Origin: Microvirga mediterraneensis
GTDB lineage: Bacteria > Pseudomonadota > Alphaproteobacteria > Rhizobiales > Beijerinckiaceae
DNA length: 64,000 nucleotides
Direction: 5' to 3'
Assembly (NCBI RefSeq): GCF_013520865.1
Contig: NZ_JACDXJ010000001.1
Coordinates: 1,665,001-1,729,000 of the forward strand
The notes beneath the pieces were generated by a model that was given only the letters and a program-made list of their open reading frames with translations, did not search any database and was not told the origin of the DNA. Both the position numbers and the translations under genes were made by a program. Of the stretch, positions 100-28,372 are shown in pieces. Each line of letters starts with the position of its first letter. Positions within the stretch are counted from its first letter, which is position 1.

Positions 100-375
100 T
101 TACTCCGCCGCCTGGAGATAAACTACTTTCGACTGCTCCCTCTGGACCTCGCGCAGAGTGCGGGCCATGTAGGTCAGCTGCTCGACGGCTTTGTCGAGAT
201 CGAGCTTTGTGCCGTCCTCGAGATCGTACGCCTCGCGCCCGCGATAGAGCCGGTTGACCTGGCTCTCCATCTCGGCGGCAGCCTCGCGGATGCGGTGAAC
301 GAGGTTGTCGGCGATGACATTGGCGTTGTCGTCGACAACGCAGAAACCGACGTCGCTTGCGCGGACCTTGGCCAT
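100..375 (-). CDS. Conserved hypothetical protein, 91 aa
   Basis: I do not recognise the family. The start is the ATG opening MAKVRASDVG; a GAGGAA ribosome site lies a few bases upstream, so a longer reading from 426 is rejected. The product is small, charged and predicted helical in its second half. It has no membrane segment or signal peptide. A good terminator follows the stop. It lies at the edge of the repair island, but nothing in the sequence ties it to DNA repair. Confidence 0.65.
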   Translation of the reverse strand: MAKVRASDVGFCVVDDNANVIADNLVHRIREAAAEMESQVNRLYRGREAYDLEDGTKLDLDKAVEQLTYMARTLREVQREQSKVVYLQAAE

Positions 376-403
376 GGGGTGATTCCTCTTCTTGTTCTTC
401 GCT

Positions 404-817
404 TTAGGCAACGGCCCGCTGCCCATGCTCCGCGTAGATGCCGAGCCGGCGAGCCAGGGAATGTTTCGTCACGGGTCCCACCCAGGGCAATGTCGCGAGA
501 AAGCGCAGCCTGTCGGGACTTGCGTTGTACTCTTCGAACAGGCGCTCACGCTCGCGCCAGATCATGTCGATCGCCTCGGCCTTGGCCGGGTGGCGGAAGC
601 CGACGCGAACCGTCGACCCGAAGTCAAGTGCGCGCATGCAGCGCTCGAACGTGCGACGGCCGATGCCGGGCGTCACGCTCGCATGGCAGATCGCTTCGAT
701 CACATGCTGGGCGAACTCGTCCGCCGTCTCGGGAGTCGTGGCCTCTGTGCCCGAGGCGTCTCCCTGAAAAGTATGGGCGCCGTAGCGCATGGTTTCTTCG
801 AGGCCGAAGCTCGGCAT
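404..817 (-). CDS. Small helix-hairpin-helix protein, 137 aa
   Basis: The start chosen is the ATG opening MPSFGLEETM; upstream in-frame sequence reads as low-quality antisense of the next gene. Near the C terminus the segment LPWVGPVTKHSLARRLG has the h-x-GVGP-x-hA shape of a helix-hairpin-helix DNA-binding hairpin. The middle (about 30-100) is a helical domain I cannot name. The stop of the 823..1437 gene is 5 bp upstream, so the two are probably one operon behind the LexA-boxed promoter at 1522-1549. A DNA-binding role is inferred; no catalytic residues were identified. Confidence 0.6.
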   Translation of the reverse strand: MPSFGLEETMRYGAHTFQGDASGTEATTPETADEFAQHVIEAICHASVTPGIGRRTFERCMRALDFGSTVRVGFRHPAKAEAIDMIWRERERLFEEYNASPDRLRFLATLPWVGPVTKHSLARRLGIYAEHGQRAVA

Positions 818-1509: not shown

Positions 1510-1549
1510 GAACAAACCAAGAACATACTCCCGATGGCCGCCATGTCAA
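1510..1549 (-). promoter_or_regulatory. SOS (LexA) box and promoter for the 823..1437 / 404..817 pair
   Basis: GAAC-AAACCAA-GAAC at 1510-1524 is a perfect match to the alphaproteobacterial LexA direct repeat GAAC-N7-GAAC. On the minus strand TTGACA (1544-1549) and TATGTT (1522-1527) form a sigma-70 type promoter with 16-bp spacing, and the box overlaps the -10. It also lies about 200 bp upstream of the divergent ATPase operon and might affect it. Confidence 0.75.
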
Positions 1550-1727: not shown

Positions 1728-2024
1728 ATGACCAGCCCGACACGTCTCGAAACAGACCAGCTCCGACGCCTGGAGGATATGCGCAAGACCTTCGACAAGC
1801 TGCGGGCGGAAAGGATCCGGGCCGAGGGCGAGGTGGAGCGTCTCACGCGCGAACTCGAGCAGGCGCGGGCCTTGGCCTTGTCGGAATTCGGCACCGACGA
1901 CGAGGGGCAGCTCCAGGGACTGATCGAGGATGCGCAGGCGCGCAACGCCAAGCTCGCCGACGAGTTCGGCGCCGCCCTGCGCGAGGTCGAAGCGCGTCTC
2001 AAGCAGCTTGGAGACGAGCGTTGA
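1728..2024 (+). CDS. Small coiled-coil protein heading the permuted-ATPase operon, 98 aa
   Basis: Nearly the whole protein is charged heptad-like helix (RLEDMRKTFDKLRAERIRAE onward), with one break around residues 53-60. There is no catalytic motif or membrane segment. Its stop overlaps the TTG start of the Rad50-like ATPase (TTGA), indicating translational coupling. Inference: it may supply a coiled-coil strand missing from the permuted ATPase, or bridge ATPase and nuclease. The protein could also be an independent small coiled-coil; homologues with fixed gene order would decide. The 290 bp upstream of it hold the 1510 SOS box and no other clear promoter. Confidence 0.7.
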   Translation: MTSPTRLETDQLRRLEDMRKTFDKLRAERIRAEGEVERLTRELEQARALALSEFGTDDEGQLQGLIEDAQARNAKLADEFGAALREVEARLKQLGDER

Positions 2025-3856
2025 TCGGACCCGATATCGATCACGACGTCGCGCGGGCGCAAGCCTCCCTCGCGCGCCTGGAAGGGCGGCGCGATGCCCT
2101 GCGCGGTCGCCGCGAGGAGCTGACGCGGGAGATCGAGCTCGCCAAGGGGCGTCTTGCCGTTAAGGACGAGGTGGAGGCCTTCATCGAGGCCGTGCACGGC
2201 TCTGCAAGCCGCCGCAGCCTGTCCGCGTTCGAGACGCTGCTCACTGCCCTGGTCCAGGAGGTTCTGCCGGGCGAGAAGCCCGTGGCGCTCGATCTCTCGA
2301 CCGAGCGCGGTCTCGCTTCGCTCGACATCTGCGTGCGCCGCGCCGACGGCACGCTCGAGGACGTGCTGGAGGACAATGGCGGCGCATTGACGAACGTGAT
2401 CAGCATGGCGCTGCGGCTGATCGCGGTGGTCAAGGCGGATGTCGCCCGCTTCCTCGCTCTCGACGAAGCTGATTGCTGGATCGCGCCCGACCGCGTCTCG
2501 TCCTTCTACAGGGTGCTGGAGGACGGCGCCGCGCGTCTCGGCGTGCAGTGCCTCGCCGTTTCGCATCACGACCTGTCGCAGTTCTCAGGCTCGTTCCACA
2601 TCGCCCGCATCGTCGGCGAGCCCGTTTCCGGAGTCGAGGTGCAGTCCACCGACACCCATGCTGCATGGAACGAAGCTCAGCCCGGGCTGCGGTTCATCCG
2701 GCTCGTCAACGTGCAGGCCTACGAGGACGCCACGCTTCATCTAGCCCCCGGCGTGAACGCGCTCATCGGCCCGAACAACCGCGGCAAGTCCACCTTCATC
2801 CGCGCCCTGCGCGCGGTGTTCTACGGTGAGGCCCGCGACAGTCTCGTGCGCGCGGGCACGAGGGCGGCGAGCGTCGAGATTGGCGTGGCGGGGCGCCGGA
2901 TTCTGCGCTTCACGCGCCAGCCGCGCCGTTCGCCCGTCAACATCTGGTCCCTGCACGAGGCGGACGGTTCCCTCGTCGAGGAGCAGGGCATGCGCTACGA
3001 GACCGGCGGTCGCAATGTGCCGGACTGGGTTGCCGATCTCATCCGTATCCGCAAGGTGGAGGATCTCGACGTTCAGATCGCGCATCAGAAATTCCCCGTC
3101 TTTCTTCTTGGAGAGACGCCGTCCCGCCGCTCGGCCGTTCTCTCGATCGGCCAGGAGGCTGGCTATATCCGCGATATGCTCGTCATTCATCGCGAGCGTT
3201 GCCGGCGGGACACCGATCTCGTGCGCAATGGGGAGCGGGAGCTGATCGCGCTGGGCGAAACGCTCGATGGGATGAACGATCTCGATGCGCTCAAGGACAA
3301 GCTGTCGGCTGTCCGAAACCAGGCCGAGGACCTGAAGGTGGTCTCATTGCAGCTGCAGGGGCTGCGGCAGCGCGCGACGCAGCTCGCTGATCTCCATGGT
3401 CGTCTGGAGAAAGCGCGAGCGCGCGCCGACATCACGGCGACACTGCCTGAGGCTGAGCAGTTGATGAACCTTACGCGATCGGTGGAGCGCTCGCGCGAGC
3501 GTCGGCGGATCGCGGAGCGGGTCGTCGGGCTCAGTCATGATCTTGCTTTGAGCGAAGCCCGGATTGCGGCGCTGCGGGACTTGCCGGAGGATCTTCCAAG
3601 CCTTGAAAACACGGGCCCGGCGCAAAATATGCTGACGCGCATGGCGGATCTTCGGAACGCGTCCCGGATCGCGCAGAGCCGCATTGCGCAGGTCAGCGAG
3701 GGGCTCGCATCCCTGCAGACGGAAATGGCGCAGCTCATGGAGGAGACCGGCGGGCTCTGCCCCACTTGCGGTTCGCCGGTGAAGCCCGAGAACCTGCTGG
3801 ACCATCACGCCCATTCCTCCCACTCTTCCACGCCGTCGGAGCGGCTGATCGCATGA
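2021..3856 (+). CDS. Circularly permuted Rad50/SMC-like ATPase with C-terminal zinc hook
   Basis: The 611-aa product has ABC-ATPase head motifs in reverse order. After an N-terminal helix (about 8-60) come a signature-like stretch (119-131, NGGALTNVISMAL), Walker B (144-151, FLALDEAD) and an H-loop (181-183, SHH). Only then come the strand normally found at a Rad50 N terminus and Walker A (250-258, GPNNRGKST). A long coiled coil (about 390-575) follows, ending in CPTC (580-583), the zinc-hook motif, about 28 residues before the stop. Canonical Rad50/SbcC runs Walker A, coil, hook, coil, Walker B; this chain looks opened at the hook and joined through the head. The TTG start overlaps the upstream stop, and the stop overlaps the nuclease ATG (ATGA). 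Role inferred: ATP-driven DNA end processing with the downstream phosphoesterase. Confidence 0.85.
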   Translation: MIGPDIDHDVARAQASLARLEGRRDALRGRREELTREIELAKGRLAVKDEVEAFIEAVHGSASRRSLSAFETLLTALVQEVLPGEKPVALDLSTERGLASLDICVRRADGTLEDVLEDNGGALTNVISMALRLIAVVKADVARFLALDEADCWIAPDRVSSFYRVLEDGAARLGVQCLAVSHHDLSQFSGSFHIARIVGEPVSGVEVQSTDTHAAWNEAQPGLRFIRLVNVQAYEDATLHLAPGVNALIGPNNRGKSTFIRALRAVFYGEARDSLVRAGTRAASVEIGVAGRRILRFTRQPRRSPVNIWSLHEADGSLVEEQGMRYETGGRNVPDWVADLIRIRKVEDLDVQIAHQKFPVFLLGETPSRRSAVLSIGQEAGYIRDMLVIHRERCRRDTDLVRNGERELIALGETLDGMNDLDALKDKLSAVRNQAEDLKVVSLQLQGLRQRATQLADLHGRLEKARARADITATLPEAEQLMNLTRSVERSRERRRIAERVVGLSHDLALSEARIAALRDLPEDLPSLENTGPAQNMLTRMADLRNASRIAQSRIAQVSEGLASLQTEMAQLMEETGGLCPTCGSPVKPENLLDHHAHSSHSSTPSERLIA

Positions 3857-4854
3857 TCCTGTCCGGAGATCGTCTTCCCACCGTCACGTGCAACGGCGTC
3901 CTCGTGATCGGGGATCCGCATGTGGGCTCAAGGCGTCCAGGCCGGCGCAAGGATACCGTGTGGCCCCAGGCCGTGCTCGGCAAGCTGGAGCGCTGCGCGG
4001 CCATCGCCAACGAGCGGGGGCTCGCCGTCGTGATCCTGGGCGATCTGTTCGACCGGCCGGTCGAGACTGACGTGGCGCTCAAGAACCAGCTCATCCGCGT
4101 TCTGAAAGGCTTTGCTCATCGGCCCATCGTCAATGTGGGCAATCATGACATCCAGCATACGACGCTGACGGACAGCGACTCGCTCGCCTTGCTGGGACTG
4201 TGCGACGTGGTTGATGTGGTGGCCGCATCGGCGCCCGTGACCGAGTTCCAGGTCGATGCGCGCCGGATCGGTATCGGCATGACACCCTACGGCCAGCCGA
4301 TCCCGACCGATGCGCGCGGTTCCTTCGCCGGCGTCGATCTTCGCGCATGGTTCACACATCACGACATCGCCTTCGACGGCGGCTATCCCGGAGCAGTGCC
4401 GCCCTTCGCGGTCGAGGGCTGCGACGTCCTGATCAACGGGCACATCCATAAGACGCAGAAATCCATCCTGGCCGGACGCACCCGCTGGATGAATCCCGGC
4501 ACCATCACGCGCCAATCCGTCGATCTCGTGGATCACGTGCCGCGCGCCTGGATCCTGGACGGCAGCGGCGCCCTGGAGCCGCATGCCCTGCCGTATGAGA
4601 GCAATGTGTTCGACCTGACCGGGCGCGTCGTCAATGCGGCGGATGGAGCCGTCGTGGCGCGGGAGGTGGAAAGCGCCTTCGTGACGCTGCTGCAGGCGGA
4701 ATCGGCCACGGAGCTGAAGCGAAGCGGCGACGGCGCGATCGTCCGCGACGAGATCGAGGCGAAGTTCTCCGCCGACGACACACCGGATGCCGTGCGGGCC
4801 ATCGTGCGCTCGCTTCTCGGCGAAGCGGTGGAACGCCACGCGGCGCAATCTTAG
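3853..4854 (+). CDS. Mre11/SbcD-like metallophosphoesterase, 333 aa
   Basis: All calcineurin-type metallophosphoesterase motifs are present: GDPHVG (20-25), GDLFDRP (63-69), GNHD (96-99), HHD (169-171) and GHIH (196-199). They are followed by a substrate-cap-like C-terminal region. The ATG overlaps the ATPase stop, so the pair is translationally coupled, as Mre11-Rad50 and SbcD-SbcC genes often are. Inferred activity is manganese-dependent nuclease on DNA ends. It differs from PdeM (28369..29070), which is smaller and belongs to the ligase set. Substrate is not readable from sequence. Confidence 0.85.
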   Translation: MILSGDRLPTVTCNGVLVIGDPHVGSRRPGRRKDTVWPQAVLGKLERCAAIANERGLAVVILGDLFDRPVETDVALKNQLIRVLKGFAHRPIVNVGNHDIQHTTLTDSDSLALLGLCDVVDVVAASAPVTEFQVDARRIGIGMTPYGQPIPTDARGSFAGVDLRAWFTHHDIAFDGGYPGAVPPFAVEGCDVLINGHIHKTQKSILAGRTRWMNPGTITRQSVDLVDHVPRAWILDGSGALEPHALPYESNVFDLTGRVVNAADGAVVAREVESAFVTLLQAESATELKRSGDGAIVRDEIEAKFSADDTPDAVRAIVRSLLGEAVERHAAQS

Positions 4855-4943: not shown

Positions 4944-5594
4944 CTAAAAGGCGAACGGGTCCGTGTAAGGCAGGCGACGCCTACGCACCTGCGTTTCCGG
5001 CAGGATCGGGCGGCTGATATCGACCGCGATCAGTCCCTCGCAGGCGAGTGCCAGGACGGCCGCGACACCGTCCTGCGTGTTCATGACGGCGCTGGCGCAA
5101 TCCACCAGCCGCATCGCCCCGACCTCGTCGAGTTGATGCAGGACCCGCACCCGGTCGCCTGCCGTGACGGGCGTGCGTCTACAGGCCATGATGAGGCGCA
5201 TGGTCGTGAAGCGCGGCTCGGCCCGGATGCTGGCAGCCGTTTCGATCACGAAAAGGCGGCCGTCCGACGAGGCGATGCCATGGATCGCGGCAGCCCGCAG
5301 CGGATGCTTCAGAAGGTCGTCATCGGTCACCACATCGACCAGATAGGCGGTGCCGTCCCGGACGATTTCGAAATCAGCCACGTGTTCGATGGTCTCGTCC
5401 CCGATGGCGAATTCCGCCGGATCTGCAGGCGCACGCAGGGATTCGACCTCGGCATCGAGCTCGCAGAGCGCCAGGTAATCGGCGATCAGGGCGTTGCGCG
5501 TGAGCGGCGTAGACGGGCGCTTCTGGGCTCGGCGGGTTCCCGAGCGGCGGGCAGGGCGCCTGTCCGAAAGGTCGAGGAGCGCTTGCGCGGACAT
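4944..5594 (-). CDS. SOS-associated hypothetical protein, weakly TnsA-like, 216 aa
   Basis: The start is the ATG of MSAQALLDLSDRR, with GGAGG 6 bp upstream; the longer frame back to 5756 crosses the promoter and is rejected. The N terminus is basic (RRPARRSGTRRAQKR). Residues about 70-95 (HVADFEIVRDGTAYLVDVV) resemble the core of TnsA-type PD-(D/E)XK nucleases, where a D...(D/E)xK strand pair is expected. The lysine is absent (VDVVT), so nuclease activity is doubtful. A perfect LexA box in a strong promoter lies about 60 bp upstream. Function otherwise unknown. Confidence 0.6.
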   Translation of the reverse strand: MSAQALLDLSDRRPARRSGTRRAQKRPSTPLTRNALIADYLALCELDAEVESLRAPADPAEFAIGDETIEHVADFEIVRDGTAYLVDVVTDDDLLKHPLRAAAIHGIASSDGRLFVIETAASIRAEPRFTTMRLIMACRRTPVTAGDRVRVLHQLDEVGAMRLVDCASAVMNTQDGVAAVLALACEGLIAVDISRPILPETQVRRRRLPYTDPFAF

Positions 5595-5652
5595 CGGGGC
5601 CTCCAGCTTGGCTTTACATACGGATGGGCGATCCTGCCCATTGCTAAGATGA

Positions 5653-5684
5653 GAACATATACAGAACAATGTGGTGCGGGTCAA
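5653..5684 (-). promoter_or_regulatory. SOS box and promoter of the 4944..5594 gene
   Basis: GAAC-ATATACA-GAAC at 5653-5667 is a perfect LexA direct repeat. On the minus strand TTGACC (5679-5684) and TATATG (5656-5661) are spaced by 17 bp, and the box lies between and over them. This places the TnsA-like gene in the SOS regulon with good confidence. Confidence 0.8.
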
Positions 5685-5819
5685 ACTTCGCACGGTTCGC
5701 GAGGGCAGACGTTCTCCCAAGTTCCGACAAGCACCTTTTTGCGCGGGTTGGGACAAAATGGCACATGGATCAAGTGACTGTTAAATAAGGCATTATCGTT
5801 TGGCGGCGGGAGCGCGGAA

Positions 5820-5862
5820 TTGGACCGAACAGCATAAATTTGCTATAGAACAAATACCGAAC
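5820..5862 (+). promoter_or_regulatory. SOS box and promoter of the 5935..6600 / recD2-like operon
   Basis: GAAC-AAATACC-GAAC at 5848-5862 is a perfect LexA direct repeat. TTGGAC (5820-5825) and TATAGA (5844-5849) form a promoter with 18-bp spacing, and the box overlaps the -10. It is back to back with the box at 5653 in a 340-bp divergent intergenic region that has no other gene. Confidence 0.8.
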
Positions 5863-5934
5863 GCGCCTGCCGAACATGGCTGCGACAAGAGCGCGTCAGC
5901 GATTTGCGGGCTCCTGAGAACGTTAGGATCGAGG

Positions 5935-6600
5935 ATGAATACGACAGACAAGAAAATTTCAGAGGTGCTTGCGAAATTCGGCGAGCCGATGGCCGGGAGC
6001 GTCTGGCGCGTCCAGGGAACCGCGGTCATCTATCACAAGACTCTGGAGCGCATTGCCGCCCAGGCGAGGATCGTCTTCGACGAGCCCAAGATCATTCGCG
6101 CCGAACGCGACGAGGCCGTCATCCAGGTGACAGGCCGCATGGGCGAGCGCGTCGAGTGGTCAATCGGCGAAGCGCTCATCGGGGTCAATTACCGGGTATC
6201 GGGCAAGCAGGCGGCGTATGTCTACGCCATGGCGGAGAAGCGCGCGAAGGATCGCGTGATCCTCAAGCTCATTGAGCTGCACGGCTATGTCTATTCCGAG
6301 GAAGAGGCCGACGAGTTCAAACAGGGCCGTCCGGGCTACGCCGATCCGCATGTGGAGATCGAGAAGACCGAGCCGCAGAAGGGCAAGGTCGAAGCGGCCG
6401 TTGCCGATGGCAAAATCGAGGACGATCTGAAGGCGAAGATCAAGAAGGCCAAGACCATCAATGCGGTCACGGACCTGATGCTCCACGCCGACACGCAGAA
6501 GACACTCGCCGATCTTCCCGAAGGCATCCGAGACGAGATCCGTGACTTCGCCAAGGCGCGCCTCGTCGAACTCGGCTGGCCGACCAAGAAGGCAGCCTAA
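5935..6600 (+). CDS. Putative phage-type ssDNA-annealing or recombination protein, 221 aa
   Basis: The start is the ATG opening MNTTDKKISEVL; an AGGATCGAGG purine stretch precedes it. The central segment about 93-130 (AAYVYAMAEKRAKDRVILKL then GYVYSEEEADEF) has the amphipathic 'A-x-KRA-x-x-R' helix seen in phage single-strand-annealing and Rad52-like proteins. The N-terminal part is beta-rich and the C-terminal 60 residues are helical. Assignment to a named family is uncertain. It is expressed from a LexA-boxed promoter and followed 89 bp later by a RecD2-like helicase, which favours a recombination role. I infer co-transcription with the helicase. Confidence 0.55.
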   Translation: MNTTDKKISEVLAKFGEPMAGSVWRVQGTAVIYHKTLERIAAQARIVFDEPKIIRAERDEAVIQVTGRMGERVEWSIGEALIGVNYRVSGKQAAYVYAMAEKRAKDRVILKLIELHGYVYSEEEADEFKQGRPGYADPHVEIEKTEPQKGKVEAAVADGKIEDDLKAKIKKAKTINAVTDLMLHADTQKTLADLPEGIRDEIRDFAKARLVELGWPTKKAA

Positions 6601-19521: not shown

Positions 19522-19971
19522 TTAAGCCCCGATCAGGTGAAGTATAACGTCGCGGCGATGCGCCCTGTCCCGGTGCTCGGCAAGATAGATCCCCTGCCAA
19601 GTTCCTAAATTCATCCGACCTTCCGTAACGGGAATGCTCAAGGACACGCCCGAGAGCATGGTCCGGATATGGGCCGGCATGTCGTCCGGCCCCTCTGCCG
19701 TGTGGACATAGCCGGCGGTCCGGGGCGCCAGCCGGTCGAAGGCGGTCATCAGGTCGCGGCGGACATCCGGGTCGGCGTTCTCCTGGATCAGGAGCGAGGC
19801 CGAGGTGTGGCGGCAGAAGGCGGTCAACAGACCGGTCCGGATGCCGGTTCCGGCCACCCACTCGGCCACCGCGTCGGTGAGCTCGGTCAAGCCCTGGCCC
19901 CGGGTGTCGAGGCTCAGCCTGCCGCTGCTCTGCCGCCCGATCGCGCCTTCGGATACGGTTTCGATCCTCAT
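19522..19971 (-). CDS. yjbQ: YjbQ/UPF0047 family protein, 149 aa
   Basis: The ATG chosen opens MRIETVSEGAIG and overlaps the ligase stop (ATGA), so the longer reading to 20085 is rejected. UPF0047 landmarks are FCRHTSASLLIQENADPDV and the C-terminal LGTWQGIYLAEHRDRAHRR. Family members form trimers with a metal-like site of conserved histidines, and thiamine-phosphate-synthase-like activity has been reported for some. Its coupling to the ligase suggests co-expression with repair genes rather than a proven repair role. Confidence 0.88.
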   Translation of the reverse strand: MRIETVSEGAIGRQSSGRLSLDTRGQGLTELTDAVAEWVAGTGIRTGLLTAFCRHTSASLLIQENADPDVRRDLMTAFDRLAPRTAGYVHTAEGPDDMPAHIRTMLSGVSLSIPVTEGRMNLGTWQGIYLAEHRDRAHRRDVILHLIGA

Positions 19972-21701
19972 CCCTTCCGCCTCGTCGCTGCCTTGTCCTG
20001 CAGGGGATAGACCTCCTCCTCGCCGCGCTCCAGGATCTTTTCCAGGGTCTCGATCCGGTCCGCTTCCGCGGCGGGTTTGTCCCACCGGATCCGGTTGATG
20101 CGGGGAAACCGCATGGCGACGCCGGATTTGTGCCGGGTCGAGCGCTGCAGCCCTTCGAAGGCCACCTCCAGTACGAGGCCCCGGTCCTTGCCGTATTCCA
20201 CCTCCCGCACGGGGCCGAAGCGCTTGACCGTGTGGTTGCGGACATAGCGGTCGAGCTTCACCAGCTCCTCGTCGGTGAAGCCGTGATAGGCCTTGCCGAC
20301 CGGCACCAGCTCCTCGCCGCTAGGGCCGTCGCGCCAGACGCCGAAGGTGTAGTCAGAATAGAAGGACGAGCGCTTTCCGTGCCCCCGCTGGCCGTACATC
20401 ATCACGGCGTCGACGAGGTAGGGATCGCGCTTCCACTTGTACCAGTAGCCCTTCGGTCGGCCAGGAAGGTAGGGGCTGTTCGCCCGCTTCACCATGCAGC
20501 CCTCGATGGCGTCTGCGTCGGGGCCGGCCCCCAGGGAGGCCGGGTCGGCACGGGCGGCCGCGAGATCGTCCCAGGTCGAGAAGGGCACCATGGGCGAGAG
20601 GTCGATGCGCGGATCGTCGAGGCGGGCGACGAGCGCTTCCAGGCGCTTGCGCCGCTCGGCGAAGGGGAGGGCGCGCAGGTCTTCCTCGCCCTCGAACAGG
20701 ATGTCGTAGACGCGTAAGTGAGCCGGAAACTCCGCGATGAGCTTGGGCGTCACGGCCTTCCGGTTCAGGCGCTGCTGGAGCACGTTGAAGCTCTGGACGC
20801 GACCCTCGCGCACGATCAGCAATTCGCCGTCGATGGCACCCTCGAAATCGAGCGCCTCCACGAGATCCGGAAAGGCCCGGGAGACGTCCTCGCCCGTGCG
20901 GGAATAGATCCGCTTCACCGGCCGCCCGTCGCTGCCGTGCCCGGCGGCCGCCTGGAGGCGGATGCCGTCCCATTTCCACTCGGCCAGGAACTCGGAGGCT
21001 TCGAGCTTCTCGAAATCTTCATCCTCGAGGGGATGCGAGAGCATGGACGGGCGGAACGGCGCAGGATTGCCGGATTCGGGCTTGGGTCCGCGCCCCTCGA
21101 CCCAGGCGAAGAGATCCTCGTAAGGCGCCTCGAGGCCGTGCCAGACCAGCTCGACCTCGTCGGGCCCGATCTCTCCGAGCTGGGCGACCGCCGTCTTGGC
21201 GAGCCGCGCCGAGACGCCGACGCGCAGCTCCCTGGTGATGAGCTTGATCAGCGCCCAGCGCCCCGTTTCGTCCAAGGCGTCCATCCACTCGGCCACTTTG
21301 CCGGGCAGGTCGCTCTTGCCGGTCGTCGCGAGCGTCTCGATCACCTCGGTGAGACTCGGGACATGGGGCGGCGGGTTGTTGTGGCCGATAGCCGGAGCGC
21401 CCGATGCGGGAGCCACGCTCTCATGTCCGGGCGAGGGCCAGATCAGGGCCACGGTCTCGGCCAGGTCGCCCACATAATGATAGGACATGCGGAACAGCTC
21501 CGGATCGGTCCGCTCCTCGACGAGACCGCGGATCAGGCCGGGTTTGGCCTCCTTGAACATGAGCGCTCCGGTCATGGCCGCGAGGGCATAGCCGCGTTCC
21601 GGATCCGGTGTGTGGTGGAAGTAATCGGTCAGGAGCCGGAGCTTCGCGTTGCGGCGGGGCTCGTAGCCGAGGCGGTCGAGAAGGGCGGCGAAGCGGTTCA
21701 T
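19968..21701 (-). CDS. Ligase-associated DNA damage response ATP-dependent DNA ligase
   Basis: A 577-aa ligase of the bacterial damage-response type (TIGR04120-like). The N-terminal DNA-binding domain (about 1-200) precedes the nucleotidyltransferase with motif I EWKWDGIRLQ (adenylated Lys), GAIDGELLI (motif III) and EGCMVKRANSPY (motif IV), and a C-terminal OB domain. It seals nicks using ATP. It overlaps the exonuclease stop upstream and the yjbQ start downstream, so the three genes form one translationally coupled unit. The helicase and PdeM partners are on the plus strand at 25742-29070. Confidence 0.93.
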   Translation of the reverse strand: MNRFAALLDRLGYEPRRNAKLRLLTDYFHHTPDPERGYALAAMTGALMFKEAKPGLIRGLVEERTDPELFRMSYHYVGDLAETVALIWPSPGHESVAPASGAPAIGHNNPPPHVPSLTEVIETLATTGKSDLPGKVAEWMDALDETGRWALIKLITRELRVGVSARLAKTAVAQLGEIGPDEVELVWHGLEAPYEDLFAWVEGRGPKPESGNPAPFRPSMLSHPLEDEDFEKLEASEFLAEWKWDGIRLQAAAGHGSDGRPVKRIYSRTGEDVSRAFPDLVEALDFEGAIDGELLIVREGRVQSFNVLQQRLNRKAVTPKLIAEFPAHLRVYDILFEGEEDLRALPFAERRKRLEALVARLDDPRIDLSPMVPFSTWDDLAAARADPASLGAGPDADAIEGCMVKRANSPYLPGRPKGYWYKWKRDPYLVDAVMMYGQRGHGKRSSFYSDYTFGVWRDGPSGEELVPVGKAYHGFTDEELVKLDRYVRNHTVKRFGPVREVEYGKDRGLVLEVAFEGLQRSTRHKSGVAMRFPRINRIRWDKPAAEADRIETLEKILERGEEEVYPLQDKAATRRKG

Positions 21702-22750
21702 GCGGCGTCTCCCGCTTCAGTGGCGGCGGGAGCCTCCTCCGCCTCGCCCTCGTCGCCATAGCCTAGCATATGCAGCGGGCGCGCCCGGATGCCGTGGGTG
21801 GTGCACCAATGGACCAGGGCGTCCTCCTGCCCGTGCGTAACCCAGACCTCTCCGGCCCCGGTCTCGCGGATCGTGCGGCACAGATCGTCCCAGTCGGAAT
21901 GATCCGAGATCACCAGCGGCAGCTCGACGCCCTTCTGCCGGGCGCGGGCCCGCACCCGCATCCAGCCGGAGGCGAAACAGGTGACCGGGTCGGGAAAGCG
22001 CCGGGACCACAGGTCCTGGATCGACGAGGGCGGGCAGATCACGATGGCGCCGGCGAGCTTCGACCGCTCGGAGGCCACGACCTTCGGAGTCTCGCCCAAC
22101 GGGACCCCCTCCGATTTGTAGAATTCGGTCAGGCGCTCCATGGCGCCGTGGAGATGGATCGGCCTGTCGTAGCCTTCCTCGCGCAGCAGGGCCATGACCC
22201 GCTGCGCCTTGCCGAGCGCATAGGCGCCGACGATATGGGCGCGCTCGGGGAACAGGGCGACGGAATCCAGGAGCTTGCGCACTTCGGCCCGCGTGTCGGG
22301 ATGGCGGAAGACCGGCAGGCCGAAGGTCGCCTCGGTGATGAAGACGTCGCAGGGCACGACCTCGTAAGGCAGGCAGGTCGGGTCCTCCGCGCGCTTGTAG
22401 TCGCCCGAGACCACGATCCGGGTGCCTCCGGCCTCGATGGTAATCTGGGCCGAGCCCAGCACATGGCCGGCGGGCGTGAAGCGCACGGTCACGTCGCCGA
22501 TCCGCAGGCTCTCGCCCAAGGGCGCCTCCTGGGTCGAGCCCGCGAAATCCTCGCCGTAGCGCACTGCCATGATGAGCAGGGTCTCCCGGGTCGCCAGGAC
22601 GGAATGGTGGCCCGACCGGGCATGATCGGAATGCCCATGGGTGATCAGCGCCCGTTTGACGGGGCGGACCGGATCGATGTGGAAATCGCCAAGGGGGCAG
22701 TAGAGCCCTTGCGGGGTCTGGGTGAGGATGTCGGTGGAACGCAGCGCCAT
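21698..22750 (-). CDS. Ligase-associated DNA exonuclease (metallo-beta-lactamase / beta-CASP)
   Basis: Start at MALRSTDILTQTPQG, giving 350 aa; the frame runs further upstream to 23104 but that part lacks homology. The MBL motif HGHSDH (38-43) and later metal ligands (GHVLGSAQITIEAG, SGDYKR) are present, with a beta-CASP-like region near the C terminus. It is the TIGR04122-type exonuclease of the ligase cluster. The stop overlaps the ligase ATG. An SOS-type promoter 500 bp upstream points toward it (23245-23299). Confidence 0.9.
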   Translation of the reverse strand: MALRSTDILTQTPQGLYCPLGDFHIDPVRPVKRALITHGHSDHARSGHHSVLATRETLLIMAVRYGEDFAGSTQEAPLGESLRIGDVTVRFTPAGHVLGSAQITIEAGGTRIVVSGDYKRAEDPTCLPYEVVPCDVFITEATFGLPVFRHPDTRAEVRKLLDSVALFPERAHIVGAYALGKAQRVMALLREEGYDRPIHLHGAMERLTEFYKSEGVPLGETPKVVASERSKLAGAIVICPPSSIQDLWSRRFPDPVTCFASGWMRVRARARQKGVELPLVISDHSDWDDLCRTIRETGAGEVWVTHGQEDALVHWCTTHGIRARPLHMLGYGDEGEAEEAPAATEAGDAA

Positions 22751-23244
22751 GGATGAGAATATAGGGTTCGGCCCGTCGATATCAGGTTGAGGGATAATGC
22801 CGTGCTCCACGATGGGCTCCATCGTCCTTGCTGGATCGCCGTGCCGATATGAGTGCGTCGACACGGCGCGGCGCCGGAACCCCGAAGCAGTCATTCCCGC
22901 ATCGGCGGTTCTTGGTCCCGGGTTCCGCTGCGCGGCCCCGGGAAAAGCCGACCATGACGGGCGGGTGCTGACCCCCTCAAATTCAAAGAGCCAGCACCTT
23001 TGGGCCCGCAGCTTGCGCTGCGAGCCTTTCGGGTTCGAGGGTGGCGCGTCGGGCAGCCCGGCTCGCTCTCTAGGGGTGAATGTGAGAGCCGAACTGCTCG
23101 TCACGCACGGTTCTTTTCAGGTGGACCAGCTGGGGAGCCCCCAAGGTCGACCTCCCGCGACCACAGGCGTGCGAGACCTGCGGCGGGACCGTGCCTGCTC
23201 TCACTCTTGCGACGCCTCGCGAGCGCGCCCCTCGTCAGAGCAGA

Positions 23245-23299
23245 TCTAGGGCAACGATATAGCCAAGGTTATCCGCCCTGTCAAGAACAAAGTGAGAAC
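23245..23299 (-). promoter_or_regulatory. SOS box and strong promoter facing the exonuclease-ligase operon
   Basis: GAAC-AAAGTGA-GAAC at 23285-23299 is a perfect LexA repeat. Immediately after it on the minus strand is TTGACA, 17 bp, then TATATC, a near-ideal sigma-70 promoter. The first annotated gene downstream is the exonuclease, about 500 bp away, so there is either a long leader, a small RNA or a lost gene in between. Confidence 0.72.
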
Positions 23300-23429
23300 A
23301 TAACATCGCCTCGCACCCGGAGCCCTCCTCAGGATGAGGCCGGAGGGGGTGTTGGCACGGCAGGACGGGGATGGCCGCAACACGTGCGGCCATGACGATG
23401 AAGGTGTCATCCTCACGTTGGTTGCCGCA

Positions 23430-23510
23430 GGGGAAGGGGATCCGCGCTCCAGCGCCGAGCGATGGATTGCCTCCCTCTCCGCTGTACGTCCATCCGGGAA
23501 TGACACCGCG
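23430..23510. repeat. Palindromic intergenic repeat, family 2 copy A
   Basis: Matches copies at 24563-24640 and 44350-44427: GGGAAGGGGATCC, then a central part with CGAGCGATGGATT, then CTCCGCTG and GGGAATGACACCG. This copy is the most diverged. Confidence 0.65.
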
Positions 23511-23554
23511 GGCGCGCCATTGACAGCTTTTCCGCTCTCCCGCATCCAAAGGCC

Positions 23555-24502
23555 ATGTCACCGACCTCCACCGTCCGTTCCTCCGGCGATTTTCTGGCCG
23601 ACCGCCGCTATGAATATGCCCGTGGGGCGTTCGACGAGCGCGACTTCGAGGCCGCTGCCGATCTCGCCCAGCAGGTGCTCGAACTGGCGCCGGGCTTCGC
23701 GGCCGCCCATGCGATGCTGGGGCGCTCGCTCGCCGAACTCGGCACGCGGGAGGAGGCGGTGGACGCCCTGCGGCGGGCCCTTTCCCTGGACCCTGAGGAC
23801 GCGTTGGGCGTGCGGCTCGACCTCGCCAGGCTAGGCGCGCTGACGCCCGATGAGGCGATCACCGGGGGCTACGTGCGGGCCCTCTTCGACGATTACGCAC
23901 CGAAATTCGACCGGCATCTGACCCGAAGCCTCGCCTATCGAGGCCCGGCACTGATCGCCGACGCCCTGCGCCGGGCCTGTTCCAGGCAGATCCGCGATTT
24001 CCGCTTCGGGCCGACGCTCGATCTCGGCTGCGGCACCGGGCTGATGGCGCAGGAGCTCGCCGGTCTTTGCAGCGGGATCGAGGGCGTCGATCTCTCGCCG
24101 CGCATGCTGGAGAAGGCTGAAAGGACGAAGCTCTACGTTGCCCTGCACGAAGGCGAGCTCGTCGCGTTCCTGAGCGGACGCGGGGTAGGCGAAGCGGACC
24201 TCGTCGTGGCGGCCGACGTGTTCGTCTACATGGCGTCGCTCGACGCGGTTTTTCGCGAGGCGCATCGTGTGTTGAAGCCCGAGGGCTTCTTCGCCTTCAC
24301 CGTTCAGGCCCATGAGGGTGAGGGCTATATCCTGGGTGACGACGCGCGATACGCTCACGGCGAACCTTACCTGCGCCAGCTCGCCGACAGCGTAGGGTTC
24401 ACGCCCGTCGTCTTCGAACGCGTCTCGACGCGGGAGGATCGCGGCGTGCCGGTTCCCGGGTTTCTCTTGGTGTTGCAGCGGTCGACCGCCGACCGTTTTT
24501 GA
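23555..24502 (+). CDS. TPR-containing class I SAM-dependent methyltransferase
   Basis: A 315-aa protein. The first 95 residues form TPR-like helices (DFEAAADLAQQVLELAPGFA, then EEAVDALRRALSLDPED). The Rossmann methyltransferase part has motif I LDLGCGTG (about residue 155), GVDLS after it and the VLKPEGFFAFTV strand. Substrate unknown; similar rhizobial proteins are annotated only generally. It separates the two halves of the ligase-associated repair set, but nothing in it points to repair. Confidence 0.85.
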   Translation: MSPTSTVRSSGDFLADRRYEYARGAFDERDFEAAADLAQQVLELAPGFAAAHAMLGRSLAELGTREEAVDALRRALSLDPEDALGVRLDLARLGALTPDEAITGGYVRALFDDYAPKFDRHLTRSLAYRGPALIADALRRACSRQIRDFRFGPTLDLGCGTGLMAQELAGLCSGIEGVDLSPRMLEKAERTKLYVALHEGELVAFLSGRGVGEADLVVAADVFVYMASLDAVFREAHRVLKPEGFFAFTVQAHEGEGYILGDDARYAHGEPYLRQLADSVGFTPVVFERVSTREDRGVPVPGFLLVLQRSTADRF

Positions 24503-24562
24503 CGTCATGCCGGGGCTGTCCCAGCCATGACGAGGAGGGTGTCCTCCCCGGCGCACGGAGTG

Positions 24563-24640
24563 TGGGAAGGGGATCCATGACGTTGCGCCTGATCGTGGAT
24601 TCCCTTCCCCTCCGCTGCGCTTTGGCCGGGAATGACACCG
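24563..24640. repeat. Palindromic intergenic repeat, family 2 copy B
   Basis: GGGAAGGGGATCC ... GGATTCCCTTCCCC ... CCGGGAATGACACCG. The ends are complementary and can form a long hairpin. It lies between the convergent methyltransferase and SDR genes and may stop transcription from both sides. Confidence 0.7.
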
Positions 24641-24745
24641 AAGGCGCATTTCCAGTCGAGATTAACGGCACAAGGCCGGTGATGACGCTAGAAGGGGCAT
24701 TTGCCCATCAGCCGGCATGCGGCCACGTTCGTTCGTAAGGGGCGC

Positions 24746-25564
<819 letters not shown>

Positions 25565-25741
25565 GGCATTGACCTTTTCATCTCGTTGTTGGCGTTGAGC
25601 CGAGCTGAAATGATCTTACACAGGATGGCAAGCGGACATTGGCGGCGTTCACACCCGTTTGCACCATGATGAATGCGATTTCGTTTCTTCCGATAGGGAA
25701 TTCTCTGGCGAAAGGCCCGATGGACCTTATGTTCAGGATCC

Positions 25742-28372
25742 ATGTCTCAAGCGTCCCTTCTCCCGAAAACCTTCCGTGACTGGTTCAAGAGCCGAGGCTG
25801 GGCGCCGCGCGAGCACCAGCTCGACCTGCTCGCCAAGGCCCGGCAGGGGCGCTCCGTCCTGCTCGTGGCGCCGACGGGCGCCGGAAAGACCCTCGCCGGG
25901 TTCCTGCCGAGCCTGGTGGAGCTGGCCGAGCGAGGGCCGGGACGAGGCACGACCCAGGACAGGCGAGGGCTCCACACCCTCTACATCTCCCCCCTGAAGG
26001 CGCTTGCCACCGACATCGCCCGCAATCTCGAAACGCCCGTGCAGGAGATGGGGCTCCCCATCCGCATCGAGACGCGAACGGGCGACACCCCCTCCCACAA
26101 GCGCGCCCGGCAGATCGAGCGCCCGCCGGACATCCTGCTGACCACGCCCGAGCAGCTGGCGCTCCTGCTCGCCCATGCGGAGGCGCGGGAGTTCTTCCAA
26201 AATCTGCGCCGCGTGGTGCTGGACGAGCTGCATTCCCTCGTCACCTCGAAGCGCGGCGACCTGCTCTCGCTCGGGCTGGCGCGGCTCCTGGCCATCGCCC
26301 CGGAGGTGACGGCCGTGGGCTTGTCCGCGACGGTGCGCGAACCGGACGATCTGCGGCGCTATCTGGTGCCTCAGCATTCCACCTCCCCCTCGAGGGGGGA
26401 GGTCGCACCGCAGGTGCGGGAGGGGGTGGGAGGCGCGAGCTTTAAAAGCGAAGTGCTGCCACCCCACCCCAGCCTACAGGCTGACCCTCCCCCTCAAGGG
26501 AAGGGTGAAGAAGCGCTCGCCGATCTCGTCGTCGTCCAGGGCGGCGCGCAGCCGGACATCCGCATGCTCGAACTCGACGAGCGCCTGCCGCTCGCCGGCC
26601 ACACGGCCTCGCTGTCGATGCCGGCGATCTACGATCTGATCCGCGCGCACAAGACCACGCTCGTCTTCGTCAACACGCGCCTGCAGGCGGAATACACGTT
26701 CCAGGAACTCTGGAAGCTCAACGACGACAACCTCGCCATCGCGCTCCATCACGGTTCGCTCGACGTGTCGCAGCGCCGGCGCGTGGAGGAGGCGATGGCG
26801 GCGGGAAAATTGAAGGCGGTCGTGTGCACCGCGACGCTCGATCTCGGCATCGACTGGGGCGACGTGGATCTCGTGGTGAATGTGGGCGCGCCGAAGGGCG
26901 CCTCGCGCATCATGCAGCGCATCGGCCGCTCGAACCACCGCATGGACGAGCCGTCGGAAGCCTATCTCGTACCGGCGAACCGCTTCGAGATCCTCGAATG
27001 CCGCGCGGCGCTCGACGCGGTGCACGAGGCGGCGCAGGATACGCCGGATGCGCGCACCGGCGCGCTCGACGTGCTCTGCCAGCACATCCTCGGCATGGCC
27101 TGCGCCGAGCCGTTCAGGCTCGACGAACTCTACGAGGAAGTGCGGTCCGCCGCACCCTACGCGGGTTTGACCTGGGAGGATTTCGAGGCCTGCGTGGCCT
27201 TCGTCGCGACGGGAGGTTACGCCCTTCGTGCATACGAACGCTTCGCCAAGATCGTGAAGGGCAAGGACGATCTCTGGCGCGTGCGCGACGCGAAGGTCGC
27301 GCAGCAATACCGGCTGAATGTCGGCACCATCGTCGAGTCCAGCATGATCAAGGTGCGGCTCGGCAGGAGCGCGCGCTCGCGTCCCGGCACGGTCCTGCCG
27401 CGCGGACGCATCCTTGGCGAGATCGAGGAGTATTTCGCCGAGACGCTCACGCCGGGCGACACGTTCCTGTTCGCCGGCGAGGTGCTGCGCTTCGAGGGCA
27501 TCTCCGAGGACGAGGTGCTGGTGACGCGGGCGGGTTCGGGCACCGATCCGATGATCCCGTCCTACGAGGGCGGCAAGTTCCCGCTCTCGACCTTTCTCGC
27601 CGCGCGGGTGCGGGCGATCCTGGCCGATCCGTTCGAATGGGACCGCCTGCCGCCGCAGATGACCGAGTGGCTCCTGCAGCAGCGCCGCCGCTCCATCGTG
27701 CCCGGACCGCGCGACCTCCTGGTCGAGACCTTTCCGCGCGGCAACCGCTACTACATGACCTGCTTTCCCTTCGAGGGCCGGCTCGCGCACCAGACGCTCG
27801 GCATGCTGCTCACCCGTCGCCTGGAACGGGCGAAGCTCAAACCGCTCGGCTTCGTGGCCAATGATTACGGGATCGCGGTCTATGCCTCGGGCGACATCGC
27901 GGCCCGCGCCGGGCGCGACCCGGCCTTCATGGACGACCTCTTCTCCGAGGACATGCTCGGCGACGACCTGGAGGACTGGCTCGCCGAATCGGCCCTCATG
28001 AAGCGCACCTTCCGCCAATGCGCGGTGATCGCGGGCTTGATCGAGCGTCGCTTTCCGGGGGAGAAGAAGACCGGCCGGCAGGTCACCATCTCGACGGATC
28101 TCGTCTACGACGTGCTGCGCAAGCACGAGCCCGACCACGTGCTTCTGCGTGCCGCGCGGGCGGATGCGGCAACGGGACTCCTCGACGTGCGGCGCCTCGG
28201 CATGATGTTAGAGCGCATCCGGGGGCGAATCATCCACAAGCCGCTCGACCGGGTTTCTCCTTTGAGCGTGTCCGTCATGCTGGAGATCGGCCGCGAGCGC
28301 GTCTATAGCGACAACGCGGACGAAATTCTGGCCGAGGCGGAAGCGGCGCTTCTCGACGAGGCTTTGGCGTGA
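25742..28372 (+). CDS. Ligase-associated damage response DEXH-box helicase (Lhr-core type)
   Basis: An 876-aa SF2 helicase: Walker A APTGAGKT (about 39-46), VVLDELHS (motif II, about 158), LSATVREPDD (motif III) and MQRIGRSNHR (motif VI), followed by the winged-helix and Lhr-core C-terminal domains. It is the TIGR04121-type 3'-5' translocase of the ligase cluster. Residues about 212-257 are an in-frame insertion encoded by a palindromic repeat (26376-26508), making it longer than usual. The stop overlaps the PdeM GTG start (GTGA). No SOS box was seen upstream. Confidence 0.93.
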   Translation: MSQASLLPKTFRDWFKSRGWAPREHQLDLLAKARQGRSVLLVAPTGAGKTLAGFLPSLVELAERGPGRGTTQDRRGLHTLYISPLKALATDIARNLETPVQEMGLPIRIETRTGDTPSHKRARQIERPPDILLTTPEQLALLLAHAEAREFFQNLRRVVLDELHSLVTSKRGDLLSLGLARLLAIAPEVTAVGLSATVREPDDLRRYLVPQHSTSPSRGEVAPQVREGVGGASFKSEVLPPHPSLQADPPPQGKGEEALADLVVVQGGAQPDIRMLELDERLPLAGHTASLSMPAIYDLIRAHKTTLVFVNTRLQAEYTFQELWKLNDDNLAIALHHGSLDVSQRRRVEEAMAAGKLKAVVCTATLDLGIDWGDVDLVVNVGAPKGASRIMQRIGRSNHRMDEPSEAYLVPANRFEILECRAALDAVHEAAQDTPDARTGALDVLCQHILGMACAEPFRLDELYEEVRSAAPYAGLTWEDFEACVAFVATGGYALRAYERFAKIVKGKDDLWRVRDAKVAQQYRLNVGTIVESSMIKVRLGRSARSRPGTVLPRGRILGEIEEYFAETLTPGDTFLFAGEVLRFEGISEDEVLVTRAGSGTDPMIPSYEGGKFPLSTFLAARVRAILADPFEWDRLPPQMTEWLLQQRRRSIVPGPRDLLVETFPRGNRYYMTCFPFEGRLAHQTLGMLLTRRLERAKLKPLGFVANDYGIAVYASGDIAARAGRDPAFMDDLFSEDMLGDDLEDWLAESALMKRTFRQCAVIAGLIERRFPGEKKTGRQVTISTDLVYDVLRKHEPDHVLLRAARADAATGLLDVRRLGMMLERIRGRIIHKPLDRVSPLSVSVMLEIGRERVYSDNADEILAEAEAALLDEALA
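26376..26508. repeat. Palindromic element inserted in frame inside the helicase gene
   Basis: The left arm begins CCTCCCCCTCGAGGGGGGAG and carries GGTGCGGGAGGGGGTGG. The right arm is CCACCCCACCCC ... GACCCTCCCCCTCAAGGG and is roughly the reverse complement of the left. This is the usual design of alphaproteobacterial intergenic palindromes. Here it is translated as a low-complexity, proline- and glycine-rich stretch without stops. Confidence 0.7.

Follow-up and report, generated by a model that had tools for sequence, protein, structure and literature searches.

Permuted motif order in a Rad50-like ATPase

Can a Rad50-like ATPase be encoded with the two halves of its head in reversed order along the chain? 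In the textbook view, a Rad50 or SMC protein is a single chain that doubles back on itself at a hook or hinge. The question arises in a 64,000-nucleotide (nt) stretch of Microvirga mediterraneensis DNA (contig NZ_JACDXJ010000001.1, positions 1,665,001 to 1,729,000 of the forward strand; hereafter "the window", to which all positions refer), where an initial annotation had described the open reading frame (ORF) at 2021..3856 (+ strand, 611 residues, TTG start, frame open) as a circularly permuted Rad50/SMC-like ATPase. The motifs of this ORF run from the signature, Walker B and H-loop to Walker A, the Q-loop, a helical arm and a C-terminal CPTC. We hold it very probable that this is the architecture of a permuted Rad50-like ATPase and, with somewhat less confidence, favor the overall reading of an SOS-induced Mre11-Rad50-like complex whose Rad50 chain has its opening at the hook and whose arm is completed, at least in part, by a small protein. 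A literature search, which reached few subscription papers and did not take in bioRxiv, found no description of a permuted Rad50 architecture.

The ORF begins with the C-lobe of an ATP-binding cassette (ABC) head (residues 52-215, 2174..2665; this and the following features are on the + strand), which holds the signature motif DNGGALTNVISMAL (residues 118-131, 2372..2413), the Walker B and D-loop stretch FLALDEAD (residues 144-151, 2450..2473) and the H-loop SHH (residues 181-183, 2561..2569). A poorly conserved linker (residues ~208-222, 2642..2686) leads into the N-lobe (residues 223-376, 2687..3148), with the Walker A motif GPNNRGKST (residues 250-258, 2768..2794) and the probable Q-loop glutamine Q356 (3086..3088), whose role we assigned by its position. 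An ascending arm follows (residues 378-575, 3152..3745), which is four helices in the structure model, and then the zinc-hook-type CPTC (residues 580-583, 3758..3769), which aligned with canonical hook regions. Above its cut-off Pfam recognized only the Walker A half, as AAA_23 (residues 226-343, E 1.8e-10). Searches of PHROGs gave two families on the one ORF, phrog_16465 ("exonuclease") at residues 223-519 and phrog_15167 ("ATPase") at residues 6-183; this result first suggested a joining, in reversed order, of proteins otherwise known separately.

Conservation of the order among relatives

In an alignment of 21 diverse permuted sequences from three proteobacterial classes there were 18 columns invariant in all rows, and these included G121, N125 and R132 at the signature, D148, E149 and D151 of Walker B and the D-loop, H182 of the H-loop, G250, G255 and K256 of Walker A, Q356, and both cysteines of the CPTC (C580 and C583). 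For counts we used a larger working set of 63 rows, made up of the window, 47 of 53 loci from genome contigs and 15 of 21 plasmid records; left out were L001 (the window itself), L046, L050, L051 and L052 (truncated by contig ends), L053 and L054 (partial matches), L062 and L068 (split systems, see below) and six plasmid records. The ATPase was a single ORF in all 63 rows, and the pattern Walker B, H-loop, Walker A, CxxC was found in that order in 62, the window included, the one failing row (L069) being an artefact of a chance second match to the H-loop pattern. The last CxxC began 10-61 residues (median 26) before the C terminus. Thus the placement of Walker B and the H-loop ahead of Walker A claimed in the initial annotation was borne out by the pattern count and the invariant columns, as was its placement of the CPTC at the C terminus. 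The distance from Walker A to the hook was 290-409 residues, with 330 in 37 rows; these distances cluster near 290, 330 and 370, as if helical units of ~40 residues had been gained or lost.

Since the same motif order is common to 62 of the 63 rows, an assembly error that swapped two adjacent frames, which the annotation had named as a possible undoing of its claim, can be excluded. We similarly give almost no weight to an assembly or frameshift artefact that misjoined two adjacent genes: phages and other plasmids do encode the halves in separate genes, but the single ORF recurs in rows from many assemblies and selection on both lobes is strong. Against five congeners the ratio of nonsynonymous to synonymous substitution rates was 0.11-0.17, and the proportion of nonsynonymous differences was lowest in the lobes (0.02-0.06) and higher at the junction (residues 205-225; 0.10-0.22) and in the arm (0.11-0.30). 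Both lobes are thus under strong purifying selection, with the junction and the arm less constrained.

Comparison with one-chain Rad50 and other ATPases

We compared a profile of the permuted form (A2) with two canonical one-chain proteins, the phage JWF Rad50 (L090) and E. coli SbcC. Against JWF, A2 columns 231-277 matched 2-48 (E 8.3e-7), 107-192 matched 576-659 (E 8.5e-4), and 581-638 matched the hook region at 294-339 (E 2e-3); a fourth, arm-to-arm segment was weaker (E 0.011). The C-lobe profile by itself also matched JWF 576-659 (E 1.6e-4 by hhalign). Against E. coli SbcC, A2 232-394 matched 4-190 (E 1.8e-4) and 610-632 matched the hook at 493-513 (E 4.7e-3), and with the N-lobe profile alone hhalign found SbcC 4-190 (E 4.3e-5) and JWF 3-113 (E 1.8e-7). 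With 40 column shuffles of the JWF alignment the best E-values were 0.13 (A2), 0.12 (C-lobe) and 0.091 (N-lobe). A Rad50-type N-lobe is thus recognized both by AAA_23 and by hhalign, and a C-lobe by its invariant signature, Walker B and H-loop together with the JWF match.

What the ATPase has in common with Rad50/SbcC proteins (E. coli SbcC and those of archaea and phages) is therefore an N-lobe with Walker A, a C-lobe with signature, Walker B and H-loop, a helical arm and a CxxC, along with an adjoining SbcD/Mre11-like gene. It differs in that the canonical order of N-lobe, arm, hook, arm and C-lobe is rotated here to C-lobe, N-lobe, arm and hook, so that the CxxC is C-terminal, in a GGA/GGS-type signature, and in that a second protein probably contributes part of the arm. 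Curated models likewise place it at a distance: no Rad50 model of NCBIfam scored above its cut-off for the ATPase, all scores being far below. Below cut-offs, residues 242-662 of the Vibrio homolog aligned with positions 3-447 of an 878-position Rad50 model (E 9.1e-15); a C-half from a split system aligned with 804-893 of 895 in another (E 4.1e-7). SbcC_Walker_B had no match above cut-off in this genome, vs 12 of 14 control genomes that had one; TIGR00618 had none either, but it exceeded its cut-off in just one of the 14 controls. The protein would work like Rad50, yet it departs from the order of the family and falls short of its curated cut-offs, and we class it as a putative variant of Rad50.

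Other families were more distant. The best NCBIfam match was to NF045487, for archaeal SMC-related proteins (ASRP), at 59.5 bits against a cut-off of 300; ASRP share a zinc hook and coiled coil with the ATPase but, according to the accessible part of PMC9389158, have the canonical order, with Walker A N-terminal and Walker B C-terminal. The SMC model of NCBIfam aligned with the arm only (residues 392-574), and no hinge-sized domain was predicted within residues 378-575, which the model renders as four helices. Sequence searches of the PDB gave a weak best match for the whole protein (E 0.013, N-lobe region) and nothing relevant for residues 1-220. A second pair in this genome (contig C3, from 112629), presumably of the YhaO/YhaN-like kind, also has an SbcD-like metallophosphoesterase gene adjoining a long AAA_23 ATPase, but there the N-lobe comes first and no CxxC occurred in the 755 residues read.

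An AlphaFold model of the ATPase had a mean predicted local distance difference test score (pLDDT) of 76.7 and a predicted template modelling score (pTM) of 0.51. Its best Foldseek matches in the PDB were Rad50 chains (9a9j_A, E 2.7e-4; 1ii8_A, E 7.9e-4), followed by RecF and SMC heads. The concern, raised in the annotation, that the fold might lack an ABC head is answered by the sequence profiles. In BFVD the best match was A7KV18 (E 9.6e-12), and the next ones included proteins of 193-219 residues, the size of the split C-halves. A7KV18 is a fusion from Bacillus phage 0305phi8-36 in which, according to the accessible part of PMC3175470, one P-loop NTPase segment was not observed; the absent segment would fit a split C-half. 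The Mre11/Rad50 fusion proteins of that paper are mobile-element variants of the same complex in which the nuclease is fused to the ATPase, and that part of the text describes no permutation of Rad50.

Homology to split Rad50 systems and a probable origin of the fusion

The two PHROGs families correspond to a Rad50 that is split into separate genes in phages and plasmids, and we fetched ten such loci, from which profiles of ten C-halves, five N-halves and seven small proteins were made. Six of the ten (L062, L068, L089, L091, L092 and L094) had an N-half, a small helical protein and a C-half in that canonical order, each N-half ending near a CxxC and other genes intervening in some; their hosts were Bacillus phage vB_BboS-125, the cyanophage Microcystis phage Mvi-JY20, and plasmids of Cetobacterium (where the N-half was spread over two ORFs), Paenibacillus, Alkaliphilus and Geobacillus, so that the plasmid hosts are Firmicutes and a Fusobacterium. 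The other four had a C-half, one of them also the small protein, with no N-half recognized within the stretch fetched. A metallophosphoesterase gene lay near the split pieces in several loci; in Paenibacillus the N-half followed the metallophosphoesterase within one ORF, and Geobacillus looked alike. GGG was present in 7 of the 10 split C-halves, which makes the "GGG-type signature" of the initial annotation an apt description.

The permuted C-lobe matched the split C-halves with an E-value of 2.1e-23 and the permuted N-lobe the split N-halves with 6.4e-24, vs 0.25 and 0.28 when each lobe was set against the wrong half. The split and permuted systems thus have homologous N-halves, C-halves and small proteins in common, the last with less firm support, and differ in layout: the former encode the pieces separately and in canonical order, whereas in the latter the C-half precedes the N-half in one ORF. 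By these profile matches the ORF is a C-half fused in front of the N-half of a split-type Rad50. In a tree of the C-lobe all 21 permuted rows fell on one side of a branch (support 89/100; 91% of 200 bootstrap trees), which is most simply explained by one origin of the fusion; the order of the split rows is uncertain because their branches are long. The permuted ATPase would have arisen from a split Rad50 when the gene for the C-half was fused to the front of that for the N-half, and evolution probably ran from the split to the permuted form. One-chain, split-in-three and permuted-fusion Rad50 forms can thereby be linked into one series.

The initial annotation had spoken of a chain opened at the hook and closed at the head. 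The order and the opening at the hook stand, on account of the profile matches to JWF and SbcC (N-lobe and hook), the canonical order of the split homologs and the order in 62 of 63 rows. The permutation is not complete within one chain, since the stretch expected after the hook is probably encoded in part by the ORF at 1728..2024.

An SbcD/Mre11-like partner gene

The gene downstream of the ATPase ORF (3853..4854, + strand) encodes an SbcD/Mre11-like metallophosphoesterase of 333 residues with DPH, GDLFD, GNHD and GHIH, which we take to be the four Mre11 motifs, so that all the motifs sought are present. As called from 3766, its ORF matched Pfam Metallophos (E 1.7e-6) and the SbcD-like phrog_100 (E 4.5e-12). 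GNHD was found in 54 of the 63 rows, the last residue of the second motif varying in some of these. In the remaining nine, all of them Gammaproteobacterial plasmid rows (L057, L059, L060, L065, L066, L067, L069, L070 and L071), the gene after the ATPase lacked the catalytic motifs, and cutting is thus not universal. Seven of these nine degenerate partners, taken as a profile, matched their active counterparts over 270 columns (E 1.4e-17), and the seven retained the C-terminal F-x-x-x-L segment; the ATPases of these rows had the invariant residues and the hook intact. To judge from the motifs lost and kept, the Gammaproteobacterial branch has an apparently nuclease-dead complex, which points to tethering without cutting.

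A LexA-type box upstream

An exact LexA-type (SOS) box, GAACAAACCAAGAAC, lies at 1510..1524 and reads GTTCN7GTTC on the minus strand, in agreement with the Caulobacter consensus given in the accessible part of PMC12700426. The same pattern occurred in this genome upstream of lexA and of one of the two recA genes. We searched for GAACN7GAAC or GTTCN7GTTC upstream of the other rows, the span being 250-700 nt before the start of the match for Microvirga-type rows and 200-900 nt (700 nt) for others. All 36 Microvirga-type rows and all 12 other genome-contig rows had the box (48/48), as a conserved island within a diverged upstream region; by comparison, 7% of random 450-nt windows contain one. A repair role under SOS control is in our judgment likely, to about the same degree as the overall reading.

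A different role would be that of an SMC-like machine for plasmid maintenance, replication or defence (Lamassu- or condensin-like) in place of end-processing repair. The gene's occurrence in 21 plasmid records, the motif-less Gammaproteobacterial partners and a best PADLOC match to LmuB (E 1.9e-10) would suit it, but we think it unlikely given the GNHD in most partners and the LexA-type box in the genome-contig rows; moreover, the LmuB match spans the shared N-lobe and arm (residues 237-589), and PADLOC matched neither the SbcD-like protein nor two neighbors, and the small protein just to PglZ (E 0.0027). None of these four proteins, the ones scanned for LmuA or LmuC partners, had a Lamassu match. 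Filing the system under defence was not adopted: 46 PADLOC families matched the ATPase, and nearly all of the 25 matches displayed lay on the N-lobe region.

The small upstream protein and the arm

The ORF immediately upstream (1728..2024, + strand, overlapping the start of the ATPase ORF by 4 bases) encodes a 98-residue two-helix protein with a conserved GTDD turn; in its model, helices at residues 4-54 and 59-97 flank the GTDD (pLDDT 93). The initial annotation did not mention this ORF, which appears to belong to the system. By tblastn it was matched in 52 of 52 loci (L002-L053), and two alignments were made from it, A3 and A4 (the latter of 19 rows, 13 from plasmids). Its profile matched the small protein of the split systems with an E-value of 1.4e-5; the best of 100 column shuffles gave 0.32 and a reversed alignment 0.049, while 14 circular rotations, in which long stretches remain unbroken, gave 1.3e-5 to 9.8e-3. 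In the six complete split loci the small-protein gene comes after that for the N-half and before that for the C-half, which is where canonical order would put the segment of arm after the hook. This makes it somewhat likelier than otherwise that the part of the descending arm next to the hook is formed by the small protein.

It might instead be an independent regulatory or DNA-binding subunit, the rod being shorter or built otherwise. Consistent with this, the small protein had no match to one-chain SbcC or JWF (E 0.2-0.5), showed no in-frame fusion to the ATPase in those rows from which it was picked out, and carries long extra tails in Alteromonas and Aeromonas; its place between the two halves in the split loci speaks against it, and we give this alternative an appreciable but minor chance.

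Proposed assembly of the complex and its difficulties

In the reading that we prefer, the ATPase chain would start in the descending arm, pass through the C-lobe, a short linker, the N-lobe and the ascending arm, and end at the zinc hook. The short linker would let one chain still build one head, and the gap between the hook and the N terminus would be filled, at least partly, by the separate 98-residue protein. With the SbcD/Mre11-like subunit this would make an SOS-induced complex that binds and, driven by ATP, tethers broken DNA ends, and cuts them where the nuclease motifs are intact. Heads could also be assembled in trans, with the C-lobe of one chain pairing with the N-lobe of another so that the molecules would join into chains or close into rings. 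Sequence and length of the linker differ between rows (Acidiphilium has a long insertion), and the structure model does not show packing within one chain; in most rows, however, the linker is short (Walker B to Walker A spacing minimum and median 103, maximum 138), and in Rad50 both lobes of one chain sit in one head, so that we regard trans heads as improbable.

Several results weigh against the preferred reading. The pTM of the model is just 0.51, with pLDDT below 50 at residues 94-99, 346-379, 523-528 and 595-611, and the Foldseek and BFVD matches support the fold and not the order, because no aligned ranges were returned. The match of the C-lobe to E. coli SbcC was not significant (E 0.42), A2 106-207 aligning in the right place (930-1037) with E 0.47, and the branch that holds the permuted rows was below the star threshold of the tree tool. 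For the small protein, homology to the split systems reached a probability of 80% only, and it faintly matched the split C-half (E 0.028) and N-half (E 0.049) as well; with these faint matches and no one-chain match, gene order is what places it in the arm. Nor do the arm lengths agree (~200 residues ascending vs ~145 descending). To the partners without catalytic motifs must be added the box, which was found in 0 of 15 plasmid rows; LexA of Beta- and Gammaproteobacteria uses other boxes, and because ten of the 15 are from these classes, five rows are informative. These five Alphaproteobacterial plasmid copies without the box are L055, L058, L061, L063 and L064.

We tentatively go further and imagine a natural multi-chain permuted Rad50, in which the C terminus with the hook would be free and a separate subunit would make up part of the descending arm. 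Such a rod could open and be put together again while its head stayed whole, swapping the small subunit could control how long the arm is or what the hook touches, and the Gammaproteobacterial branch would be a purely structural, nuclease-dead tether; this is a possibility that we would back less readily than its opposite. A natural, selected form opened at the hook, its lobes joined the other way round and part of its arm probably on a second chain, would reveal the covalent connections on which rod and head depend. The system could be used to ask where along the rod of Rad50 the chain has to be continuous, it supplies small testable proteins, and the Gammaproteobacterial branch, its Mre11 apparently nuclease-dead, could allow tethering to be studied apart from cutting.

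Distribution

Our scan of genome contigs found 53 loci, mostly in Microvirga or Methylobacterium. Within the genus the gene was present in 43 of 48 genomes, one match being a 59-residue fragment; in the family there were matches in 11 of 119 genomes (five long and six short N-lobe matches), and in the phylum 2 of 398 genomes matched at E 1e-20, this genome counted. A tblastn search of the plasmid collection gave 24 records, 21 of them of the permuted form, on large plasmids of Alpha-, Beta- and Gammaproteobacteria, and a Vibrio query recovered the same 21; of the other three, one is the Cetobacterium split system and two are Thermus records whose match spans 42 residues. Methylorubrum extorquens AM1 has a copy on a megaplasmid. 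In the phage collection the window protein matched only two records of Bacillus phage vB_BboS-125, in the N-half, and the Vibrio protein had no match; among IMG/VR viral contigs no relative was found with the single protein, alignment A2 or residues 49-220. The permuted form is thus not seen in phages at the sensitivity used. One congener (G154) has a second copy (contig C33:235699-237336, 35% identical) besides one that is 81% identical.

Genomic setting

Two more exact boxes lie at 5653-5667 and 5848-5862, near the starts of the genes at 4944-5756 (-) and 5800-6600 (+), and at least two boxes occur 1000-3600 nt after the ATPase gene in 35 of 36 Microvirga-type rows; over the whole window, with one mismatch allowed, 36 boxes were found vs 43 expected, which is not above chance. 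These two genes and that at 100-426 (-) recur in Microvirga loci as neighbors of the cassette, and none of the three had a Pfam family above cut-off or an NCBIfam family. We considered a recent mobile element as the setting and dropped it: nine of ten genes scanned at 0.8-22 kb had ordinary Pfam families, the neighbors are common to most Microvirga loci, and ~8 kb upstream there is a 16S rRNA gene accompanied by tRNA-Ile and tRNA-Ala. Farther along the window, at 19968-28372, an ATP-dependent DNA ligase, a metallo-beta-lactamase-fold protein and an Lhr-type helicase form a second cluster that resembles DNA repair genes.

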